Program-made: the position numbers and the translations under genes
Shown here: in pieces, positions 55,945 through 58,585 of the stretch
Position numbering within the stretch: the first letter of the stretch is position 1
Layout of the letters: each line of letters begins with the position of its first letter
From: Candidatus Poribacteria bacterium
GTDB taxonomy: Bacteria > Poribacteria > WGA-4E > PCPOR2b
Assembly: GCA_022822785.1 (NCBI GenBank)
Contig: JAJEAL010000145.1
Coordinates: 1 to 64,000, forward strand
Direction of reading: 5' to 3'
DNA length: 64,000 bases
The notes under the pieces: model-generated
Databases searched by the model: none
The model's input: only the letters and a program-made list of their open reading frames with translations
Told to the model about the DNA's origin: nothing

Positions 55945-56033
55945 CCCATGTTAAGAAATAGTACAACAGAAACCGAGTTTTTTCTTCAAAACTCGGTTTC
56001 TCTTCGTGCTTTCCATTTTCTTTTTACATGAAC
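55945..56033. repeat. Hairpin MITE family A, copy 6 (type copy)
   Basis: Complete copy. Left end CCCATGTTAAGAAATAG, hairpin arms AGAAACCGAGTTTT and AAAACTCGGTTTCT (55968-56001), right end TTCTTTTTACATGAACC. The ends are imperfect inverted repeats of one another (about 16 bp). It lies between selD and senB. Confidence 0.8.
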
Positions 56034-57095
56034 CTATCTAAAAACAAGATAGTTCGGTTCGGCAAAAGACTTCACGTCCCCGATGACTTGCGCTTCTGTC
56101 ACACCACCATTGTGCAAAGCCCTCAACAGCGATTCGCTTTGAGAGGCGGGCACAGACATCAGGAGCCCGCCGCTAGTCTGCGGATCAACAAAGATTTCTT
56201 CATGCCACTCAGGGAGCGATTTCTCAAAATGCGCGGAATCCTCAATCAACGCGCGATTGGCAGCATTAACCCCTGTCCGCATCCCTCTTTCGTACATCTC
56301 CAGCGCCTCGCTCATCGTCGGCACCTCGTCGGTGCGAATTTCTAAAGTCACGCCTGACCCTTCAGCCATTTCTAAAGCATGACCGCCTAACCCGAATCCG
56401 GTGATGTCCGTCACCGCATGGATGTCAAAATCAACCATAACCGCTGCCGCCCCCTTGTTGAGCGTCGTGATAGCCCCTATGCACTCCGCTAGTGCTTGGT
56501 CTGACACCCAGTTTTTCAGATTGGCGTTAAAAAGTACGCCGCTACCAATCGGTTTCGTCAAGATTAGGACATCTCCCGGTTCGGCACCGACATTTCGCCA
56601 ATACTTTTCCGGATGCACAATTCCAGTGACCGATAACCCAAACTTGGGTTCCTCATCATCGGTCGTATGCCCGCCCGCTAGGACCGCGCCGGATTCGGTG
56701 ATTTTACTCAGTGCCCCTTCGACAATACCGTGCAGGATTTCTGGACCCAATTTGTCCGCGGGAAACCCCACCAAATTCAGACAGGTCACCGGTCTGCCGC
56801 CCATCGCATAAATGTCGCTGATGGAATTTGCTGCGGCGATTTGACCGAACAGATACGGATCATCCACCGGCGGTGTGATAAAGTCGGCGGTTGTAACCAA
56901 TGCCATCTCGTCGTTCAGGCGGTAGATACCCGCATCATCGCTCGTCTCAAACCCAACGAGCAGATTTGGGTCGTTCTTCTTCGGCAATTTAGCGAGAAGT
57001 TCCCCCAGTCCAACTGGACTGACTTTCGCCGCTCACCCGCACGTTTTTGCAAGGCTTGTGAGTGTATGTTTTCGTGACAACCTATTTAGGTTCAT
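56034..57095 (-). CDS. selD: Selenide, water dikinase (selenophosphate synthetase), itself a selenoprotein
   Basis: 353 residues with one in-frame TGA at 57033-57035. Without recoding, translation could only begin after that codon, losing the active site. The ATG at 57095 has GGGAG upstream. Residues 19-24 read Cys-Gly-Sec-Ala-Ala-Lys: the TGA falls exactly at the catalytic Cys/Sec position of SelD (family motif G-[CU]-A-A-K), followed by Lys24. Later motifs agree with the family: TADFITPPVDDPYLFGQIAA, DIYAMGG, GGHTTDDEEPKFGLSVTG and DPQTSGG. It makes selenophosphate from selenide and ATP, for selenocysteine tRNA and for SenB. A SECIS-like hairpin follows the TGA. Confidence 0.92.
57006..57021 (-). 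promoter_or_regulatory. Bacterial SECIS-like hairpin in selD
   Basis: On the coding strand, 11 bases after the TGA, CAGTCC pairs perfectly with GGACTG around the loop AGTT. The loop contains G-U, and it begins 17 bases after the TGA; known bacterial SECIS loops lie about 16-37 bases downstream and carry a conserved G. It would bind the SelB elongation factor. Confidence 0.65.
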
Positions 57096-57129
57096 CCTAT
57101 CGCTCCCAACCTTTCTAATCTTCTACCAA

Positions 57130-57216
57130 GACATCAGAAACCGAGTTTTCAAGAAAAAACTCGGTTTCTCTTTATGCTTCGCACTTTCCTTTTACATGAG
57201 CCAACTCGGTTTCTCT
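57130..57216. repeat. Hairpin MITE family A, copy 7
   Basis: Hairpin at 57136-57169 and right end CCTTTTACATGAGCC, followed by an extra piece CAACTCGGTTTCTCT. It separates selD from the small gene at 57234. Confidence 0.75.
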
Positions 57217-57233
57217 AATCTCGTGTAATACAA

Positions 57234-57440
57234 TTATGCCATAGCGGCTTTTGCCTGCGCTAACGCCTCAGATTCCGCATCAGCGCGGGTCTCAGCCGTA
57301 GACCGAGAAATGACAGCACCGGGGCTTACATTGTCTACAGTACAGATATACGCATCACCGAGTTGGTAGGATCTAATCCGAACCGTCCATTTTCCAATAG
57401 CTTCGGTTCGGGTTTGATGGTTTTTAGGGGTTTGCGCCAT
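57234..57440 (-). CDS. Small conserved-looking protein of unknown function
   Basis: 68 residues, AAGGAG 10 bases before the ATG. GKWTVRIRSYQLGDAYICTV is beta-rich and is followed by an Ala/Glu-rich helix (ETRADAESEALAQAKAAMA); this resembles a small single-domain fold. No signal peptide. It begins 29 bases after the stop of the MetE-like gene, so the two are in one transcript; function unknown. Confidence 0.75.
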   Translation of the reverse strand: MAQTPKNHQTRTEAIGKWTVRIRSYQLGDAYICTVDNVSPGAVISRSTAETRADAESEALAQAKAAMA

Positions 57441-57469
57441 ACTTTTTCTCCTTCAAAAATTCACCCGAT

Positions 57470-58585
57470 TCAGTTCCACATCTTTCTAGCGGTCTCGACA
57501 ACTACCGATAGCTTATGTCGCTGATCTTCTTCGGTTATGTGATTGCCGAGGACCGAAGTTGCGAAGCCGCACTGTGGACTCAACGCGAGTCGTTCTAGCG
57601 GCATAAATTGATTGGCTTCCTTGATACGCATCGCAAGTTCCTCCGGCGTTTCCCGACGCCCTGTTTTTGTCGTGACCAACCCTAAAACGGCAATCTTGTC
57701 ATCGGGAATGAACCGCAACGGTTCAAAGGAGCCGGAGCGTTCATCGTCGTATTCGAGCAGCAGCCGCTGGGCACGGATGCCCTCGAAAATCGGTTTAGCA
57801 ATCAGCTCGTAATCCCCTTCGACCAACCACCGGCTGCCCTGATTACCGCGTCAGAGGTGAAACCCAAATGTCACCTCCGGAAAATCGCCAATCACAGCAT
57901 TGTCCATCTCAATGCCTCGATCCAGCCACCGATTGAGCCCCCAACCTTGCTTTTCGTAGAAGGTTCTGGTCTTCGGATCAAGCAGCAACGGATAGTGAGG
58001 GGCATCAAGCTGAATGTAGGTTGCGCCGAGTCGAACCAACTCGGCGACCTCATTCCGGAGAATATCAACGACATCCGCAAGAAAGCTGTCGAGCGTCGGA
58101 TACGCTAACAGAGAGTGTTCTGACGACCAGAAGTTTGTCCATAGACTCGGACTTGGCAACGTAACCTTCGGGATGCGAGTCGTCCGCGCCCGTAGATAGG
58201 TGAACTCCTCCGTTGACAGGTGACGTTTACGTTTGAGTTTGCTTACAACACCCAAATTCTTGGGACGTTCTAAACTCAAGTTGCCCGCGTCTCCATCACC
58301 ACGCCAATCACCCCAGAGGAAGGCGTTGAGATCGTATTCACCGAAACCGGCGACCGCCTCCGTCATCTGGCTCTGGAAGGATAACCTACGCATTTCACCA
58401 TCGGTAACAACATCCAAGCCCACCGCTTCCTGCAGCGCAACCGCCTCGTCAACCGCTTGGTCCTCGACAGCTTTGAACGCCGCTTGCGTCATTTTGCCCG
58501 CAGCGACTTCGCTTCTCGCTTTGAGGAGTTCAGGCGGACGGAGCAGACTTCCAACGACATCGGTATGCGCCGCAGTCATGGGCAT
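57470..58585 (-). CDS. MetE-like (COG0620) zinc methyltransferase with a selenocysteine codon at the zinc ligand
   Basis: 371 residues if the single in-frame TGA at 57851-57853 (codon 245) is read as selenocysteine; the halves on both sides are in the same frame. The N-terminal half has ADVVGSLLRPPEL-type start (HTDVVGSLLRPPEL), VGLDVVTDGEMRRLSF and YIQLDAPHYPLLLD. The junction reads His243-Leu-TGA-Arg-Gly-Asn; relatives such as YxjG/YxjH read His-X-Cys-Arg-Gly-Asn, where Cys binds the catalytic zinc. The second half has LLLEYDDERSG (Glu278) and LSPQCGFAT (Cys339); the 61-residue Glu-Cys spacing equals that of E. coli MetE. Members move methyl or alkyl groups to thiols. selD lies downstream, supporting recoding; a nonsense mutation is the alternative. 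Confidence 0.85.
57824..57836 (-). promoter_or_regulatory. Bacterial SECIS-like hairpin in the MetE-like gene
   Basis: Fourteen bases after the TGA, CAGCC pairs with GGTTG (one G-U pair) around the loop GGT. The loop begins 19 bases after the TGA and contains G-U, as in known bacterial SECIS elements. The stem is shorter than in selD. Confidence 0.5.

Follow-up and report, generated by a model that had tools for sequence, protein, structure and literature searches.

The selD gene in the stretch of DNA analysed here (the window, 64,000 nucleotides from a Candidatus Poribacteria bacterium) almost certainly encodes a Sec-containing selenophosphate synthetase, with Sec inserted at codon 21 by way of a hairpin and SelB. 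The gene next to it probably represents a new selenoprotein family, a MetE-like methyltransferase with Sec among the ligands of its catalytic zinc (both genes within 56034-58585). Sec-containing SelD is a known arrangement; the Sec form of a MetE-like protein is absent from the published inventory that was checked. For selD we observe the reading frame, the aligned residues, their conservation, the pairing of the hairpin and the Sec gene set of the genome directly, and its features are the following.

56034-57095, minus strand: selD, selenide, water dikinase (selenophosphate synthetase), 353 codons with the TGA read as Sec
57033-57035, minus strand: Sec21, the in-frame TGA of selD, aligned with Cys17 of E. 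coli SelD
57103-57107, minus strand: GGGAG, resembling a ribosome-binding site, 7 nt before the selD ATG at 57093-57095
57005-57022, minus strand: SECIS-type hairpin TCAGTCC-AGTT-GGACTGG, whose loop begins 17 nt past the TGA and has G in second place

The original prediction placed the true start of selD 36 codons upstream of the apparent ORF, and the frames bear this out: the mechanical ORF list gives an ordinary ORF of 317 aa with a TTG start at 56987, whereas the frame read through the TGA has 353 codons. The GGGAG-led ATG and the Gly-Sec-Ala-Ala-Lys at residues 20-24 that it described are both present in the sequence, the latter as the motif G20-U21-A22-A23-K24 of the 353-residue product, and the GGAG and ATG are shared by all six genus genomes and by genome G017. 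This product reaches 373.7 bits with TIGR00476, the SelD equivalog (cut-off 125), contains the AIRS domains PF00586 and PF02769, both above cut-off, and is 92-93% identical to the SelD of the nearest named contigs, which are Candidatus Poribacteria MAGs. Compared by phmmer, it is homologous over ~310 residues to two solved Cys-type SelD proteins, 3u0o (E 4e-65) and 2yye (E 3.5e-61), both of which have Cys where the window's SelD has Sec21. In the phmmer alignment Sec21 falls on Cys17 and Lys24 on Lys20 of 3u0o, which we take to be E. coli SelD, with Cys17 and Lys20 presumably essential residues of its catalytic loop. Alignment with SelD proteins of either kind had been proposed as a check, and it places the TGA on Cys in 3u0o and 2yye and on Sec in relatives.

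Sec-containing SelD has been described as widespread (PMC9312934; PMC12013277; PMC2398784), and the claim that it is known in other bacteria is in agreement with Table 1 of PMC13188914, where it is listed as experimentally verified with a UxxK motif. The selD of the window and the Sec-SelD known under TIGR00476 are alike in their full-length match, Sec-x-x-Lys, the SECIS-type hairpin and the Sec machinery of the genome, with no difference in kind between them. Single-domain Sec-SelD has been put at ~5.6% in ocean samples (PMC2398784), and the possibility that SelD maintains Sec decoding has been discussed (PMC1794560).

The Sec codon of selD was followed through a phylum set of 84 genomes (G000-G083), 75 of which match SelD at E up to 1e-30, with one TGA in every one of the 75 rows. 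The codon was confirmed in the DNA of 74 of them by a script that took the Sec reading where present, and by eye in the 75th (L130), which reads HGAGUACK and was missed by the pattern. Among the 74 script-read sequences the motifs are CAGUASK (61), TCGUAAK (nine) and GAGUACK, SAGUAAK, KSGUACK and YAGUASK (one each). No SelD match at E up to 1e-30 was obtained in nine of the 84 genomes (G003, G004, G010, G013, G031, G037, G054, G064 and G067). A selB gene is likewise found in 75 of the 84; both genes occur together in 70, SelD with its TGA but no selB match in five (80-83% complete), selB but no SelD match in another five (84-96% complete) and neither in four. Genomes with one gene only may be due to assembly gaps or losses and are incompletely explained. 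Outside the phylum, 48 genomes picked for carrying a relative of the MetE-like gene were sampled, and SelD was matched in 42, of which 25 show a TGA in that row. Thirty of the outside-phylum SelD loci were fetched; 22 were readable by pattern (18 Sec and four Cys) and eight were unreadable by it. Homologues that code for Cys at the position of the selD UGA exist, namely 3u0o, 2yye and the four Cys loci among these 22.

Two types of SelD are mixed within families: the genera g1, g4 and g7 have the window's type (76-93% identity), and g2, g3 and g6, from the same families, have the other (43-51% identity). CAGU, a CxxU motif, is carried by 61 of the 74 script-read phylum sequences, and the window's own SelD has CGU. 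The window's type was also detected beyond the phylum, in a Gemmatimonadetes genome (72%, G102) and a SAR324 genome (65%, G106), and its spread across genera and phyla suggests horizontal transfer. This SelD type and a Cys-form MetE-like gene (L148, L221) apparently lie on one Gemmatimonadetes contig of 8352 bp, as their contigs agree in length.

The Sec machinery stands on contig C141 of the same assembly, where selA, selB and tRNA-Sec follow one another in this order on one strand, in one operon.

C141, 29620-30717: selA, 518 bits
C141, 30826-32718: selB, 366.6 bits against a cut-off of 242.25
C141, 32776-32865: tRNA-Sec, 74.6 bits (gathering score 47)

A search of the genome for selA, selB and selC (tRNA-Sec) had been suggested together with the claim on selD, and all three are thus in the assembly. 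Among 14 control genomes, selA was matched in E. coli and M. jannaschii only, as was selB at E up to 1e-70. The tRNA-Sec family rises above its cut-off in five of the 14 controls, so the weight of the match comes chiefly from its score and from its location within the sel operon; the next-best place in the genome itself reaches 42.6 bits. The original prediction also held that the selD TGA shows that this genome decodes UGA as Sec, and it should be noted that such decoding is shown by the machinery but that the TGA alone is insufficient to establish it. Two more genes with an in-frame TGA came from searches with single families.

G000, contig C23, 3298-3510: SelW-like gene with CSAU and an in-frame TGA (L217), the one match of its search
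G000, contig C8, 8709-8957: CMD/AhpD-like gene with CRYU and an in-frame TGA (L219), one of three matches with a TGA

Together with selD and the MetE-like gene, these make at least four likely selenoprotein genes in the genome. A selenouridine synthase (TIGR03167) was not found in the genome. Within the window, ARAGORN detected no tRNA and Rfam at E up to 10 gave four matches, all below their gathering scores.

A perfect 6-bp hairpin with loop AGTT had been claimed 11 bases past the TGA of selD, and CAGTCC-AGTT-GGACTG does start there, its stem being extended by an outer T-G pair. The bSECIS model describes a loop of 3-9 nt on a stem of 4-16 bp, with G in the first two loop bases, and for most a distance of 16-37 nt between loop and UGA (PMC13188914). 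The selD hairpin falls within this model (loop of 4 nt, AGTT; stem of 7 bp; 17 nt), and a hairpin that fits it is found in all 74 script-read phylum SelD sequences, a set that does not include L130. The loop starts 16-17 nt after the TGA in 64 of the 74, at 20 nt in five and elsewhere in five. Against 300 synonymous recodings the window's hairpin reaches p ~0.09, and p is up to 0.05 in six of the 74 sequences. This test is weak for single sequences, because random synonymous recodings often contain such a hairpin too (null means of -1.3 to -5.7 kcal/mol). Single-sequence folding after the selD TGA gave z -2.2 over 51 nt and z -0.3 over 46 nt, the latter without excess stability; as proof of a SECIS it was rejected as weak, and comparison of relatives was used instead.

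For this comparison the sequences were divided into pairing groups, which differ in stem and register and were picked from the data, and L119, L124 and L128, fitting none, were left out. In the group of the window's type (nine sequences), 53 of 54 cells are paired over six pairs; sliding the 3' arm by up to 3 leaves no more than 29 of 54. A second group of 57 sequences has 270 of 342 cells paired (at most 223 when slid), with pairs 19-25 to 16-28 present in 57 of 57, and a third group of five sequences has 30 of 30 (at most 15 when slid). When G102 and G106 are added to the nine, 97.4% of the hairpin cells pair in the resulting 11 sequences, among which double-sided changes occur at 18-27 (U-A to C-G) and at 15-30 (C-G to G-C or G-U). 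Positions 18, 27, 15 and 30 are third codon bases. The hairpin changes in G102 are all synonymous; in G106 a first-base change also makes codon 5 Leu instead of Val. In a shuffle control, five of 500 reached the observed pairing and three of 500 the covariation score, values that kinship can inflate, and 144 of 500 had at least as many doubly changed pairs. Taken alone, the putative SECIS of selD is weakly above chance, and by comparison across relatives it is convincing.

From known biology we infer SelB binding, Sec insertion and catalysis for selD in the following way. SelB on the hairpin just past the UGA would deliver Sec-tRNA-Sec to codon 21, where the ribosome would insert Sec rather than stopping. 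Sec21 and Lys24, in a flexible N-terminal loop, would make selenophosphate from ATP and selenide, and SelA would make Sec-tRNA-Sec using this selenophosphate. Because SelA requires selenophosphate for Sec-tRNA-Sec, SelD would need its own product, a loop of self-dependence that established SelD biochemistry leads one to expect. The same machinery probably also serves the SelW-like, CMD/AhpD-like and MetE-like genes.

Other readings of the selD TGA can be imagined. The assembly is a draft and the codon is one base away from Cys and Trp codons, which would allow a sequencing error or a nonsense mutation in a gene that is Cys-type or broken. However, a sequencing error is excluded because the TGA is there in 75 of 75 phylum genomes with a match; it is also there in 25 of the 42 matched genomes outside the phylum, and the frame is conserved on either side of it, which leaves error or nonsense with practically no probability. 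A start downstream of the TGA, at the TTG given by the mechanical ORF list, would yield a SelD of 317 aa without its catalytic loop. This is very improbable considering that residues 1-20 are conserved in the genus, that residues 12-20 align with solved SelD and that the GGAG and ATG are kept in the six genus genomes. Several genes with an in-frame TGA would also be seen if TGA were a general sense codon here (table 4 or 25), but the use of stops in the window refutes this: among the 47 open frames with at least 230 codons, 22 end in TGA, and in 21 of the 22 the frame stays open for no more than 55 codons past that TGA, the exception being the MetE-like gene with 126. With tRNA-Sec, selA and selB present as well, the chance that TGA is a general sense codon is negligible, and TGA is otherwise a normal stop in this genome. 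With selD read as a Sec-containing SelD, the phylum gains such a protein in 75 of 84 genomes, in which ORF callers that stop at TGA truncate the gene.

The larger value of selD is the support that it gives to UGA being read as Sec, through which its neighbour becomes testable as a new selenoprotein. The features of this neighbour, and of the small ORF that separates the two genes, are as follows.

57470-58585, minus strand: MetE-like gene (PF01717), 371 aa, one in-frame TGA, proposed new selenoprotein family
57851-57853, minus strand: Sec245, the in-frame TGA of the MetE-like gene, aligned with Cys643 of E. coli MetE
57824-57836, minus strand: hairpin CAGCC-GGT-GGTTG in the MetE-like gene, SECIS-type, whose loop begins with G 19 nt past the TGA
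57234-57440, minus strand: 68-aa ORF separating the two Sec genes, without a Pfam match

The TGA of the MetE-like gene lies within HLURGN. The protein reaches 57.3 bits with PF01717 (cut-off 21), but stays below the cut-off of the nearest NCBIfam model, PRK06520 (241.1 against 313 bits), and far below that of canonical tandem-repeat MetE (TIGR01371, 40.1 against 929.95 bits); with 371 aa it is also short of the ~750 aa of the two-domain canonical enzyme. It is 85-87% identical to its counterparts on the nearest named contigs, again Candidatus Poribacteria MAGs. A putative B12-independent methionine synthase, 1ypx, matches it over the full length (E 3.8e-47) and has HICRGN, that is Cys, at the site where the MetE-like protein has Sec. 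In an hhalign comparison of the family with E. coli MetE (99.4% probability), H243, U245, E278 and C339 fall on His641, Cys643, Glu665 and Cys726, which we take to be the zinc ligand positions of that enzyme. As U245 aligns with Cys643, Sec would replace one zinc-ligand Cys at this predicted site. In tandem-repeat MetE the zinc ligands are one His, two Cys and one Glu (PMC7005905). The MetE-like protein resembles MetE and core-MetE (PF01717; PMC7005905) in that the four zinc ligand positions align, and is unlike them in being a single domain of 371 aa with Sec at one predicted ligand.

Within the phylum, the TGA form of the MetE-like gene occurs in seven genomes, six of the genus and G015, and the other MetE-like matches are 33-37% identical and have no internal stop. 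The gene adjoins selD in all six genus genomes, at a distance of 304-591 bp. A scan of genome contigs with the alignment of the seven sequences gave at least 510 loci encoding relatives, the best 80 of which were taken further. The site is readable in 79 of these best 80 (15 Sec, 64 Cys), and the remaining one, L192, ends at the site. Three of the 15 Sec loci are from Poribacteria, apparently G018, G020 and G021, and the other 12 are from Deltaproteobacteria/Myxococcota (five), NC10/Methylomirabilota (two), Acidobacteria (two), Chloroflexi, Planctomycetota and Tectomicrobia (one each). Altogether, at least 19 genomes in seven phyla have a Sec-coding MetE-like gene. A tree of the 80 rows, in which Sec was written as Cys and the site column was kept in, needs seven changes between Sec and Cys, and its well-supported branches force at least three.

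The hairpin of the MetE-like gene was compared in the same manner. Its five-pair stem (CAGCC with GGYTG in most) has 94 of 95 cells paired in 19 Sec forms, and no more than 72 of 95 after sliding; 17 of these forms have the loop GGT and two have GTT. The decisive base of the loop falls on the third position of an Arg codon, which is CGG or CGT in all 15 Sec forms but in only seven of 35 Cys forms (Fisher p 8e-8, uncorrected for kinship), Cys forms mostly using CGC; the 35 are those of the 64 Cys forms with SRW, GRW or NRW at the loop site. The outer pair 18-30, of which both members are third codon positions, occurs as four pair types in the Sec forms and is present in 18 of the 19, as against 18 of the 35 Cys forms (p 0.002). 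The four inner pairs do not discriminate, because nearly as large a share of the Cys forms has them (33 to 35 of 35).

The alternative for this gene is that its TGA is a nonsense mutation and that the two halves are made separately or not at all. The gene is indeed listed as two ORF pieces, of 244 and 118 aa, and single-sequence folds after the TGA have no excess stability (z -0.1 and +0.5). Furthermore, selB fails to separate the genomes with the two forms, being present in nine of 12 with the Sec form and 23 of 36 with the Cys form (Fisher p 0.73; 36 of the 64 near-subfamily Cys-form loci were taken in). Three Sec-form genomes are without selB; two of them, G090 and G091, also gave no match for SelD, possibly owing to incomplete assemblies, and the third, G085, has a SelD with a TGA. 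In G095, a Sec-form MetE-like gene occurs with a SelD row that has no TGA. Nevertheless, a nonsense mutation would have to fall on the same codon in at least 19 genomes of seven phyla, at a site where relatives have Cys, and the SECIS-type loop (15 of 15 Sec forms, seven of 35 Cys forms) and pair 18-30 (18 of 19, 18 of 35) follow the Sec forms; we therefore regard it as quite unlikely. The support that the original prediction drew from selD for a Sec-containing MetE-like protein is matched by what was found: a TGA conserved at one codon, relatives with Cys and a SECIS-type loop.

If the MetE-like gene does encode a selenoprotein, the enzyme would use Sec to tune zinc-centred methyl transfer and not for redox chemistry; most characterized selenoproteins combine a thioredoxin-like fold and a redox motif (PMC13188914). 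With its gene next to selD in the six genus genomes, it might serve to handle methylated compounds of selenium or sulfur, which we offer as a proposal. It would not be the first Sec enzyme of methyl transfer, because others are listed, among them arsenite methyltransferase, methylated-DNA-cysteine methyltransferase and MduS (PMC13188914); these share methyl transfer with Sec but belong to other families by their domain identifiers. No MetE or PF01717 entry stands among the 119 prokaryotic selenoprotein families and subfamilies in Table 1 of this 2026 inventory (PMC13188914). Likewise, a MetE-type selenoprotein was not found in print within the titles, the beginnings of abstracts, PMC10418091 and PMC10298544, a scope outside which most subscription papers lie.

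Two minor features accompany the pair of genes. The 68-aa ORF between them has counterparts in three named relatives, with 87-94% identity over 52 aa. A palindromic repeat, GAGAAACCGAGTTTT...AAAACTCGGTTTC, is found at 55967-56002, at 57135-57170 and at further places in the window, with one copy on either side of selD; 18 half-site matches with up to two mismatches were counted, as against 0.25 expected by chance. These repeats could be terminators or a small mobile repeat.
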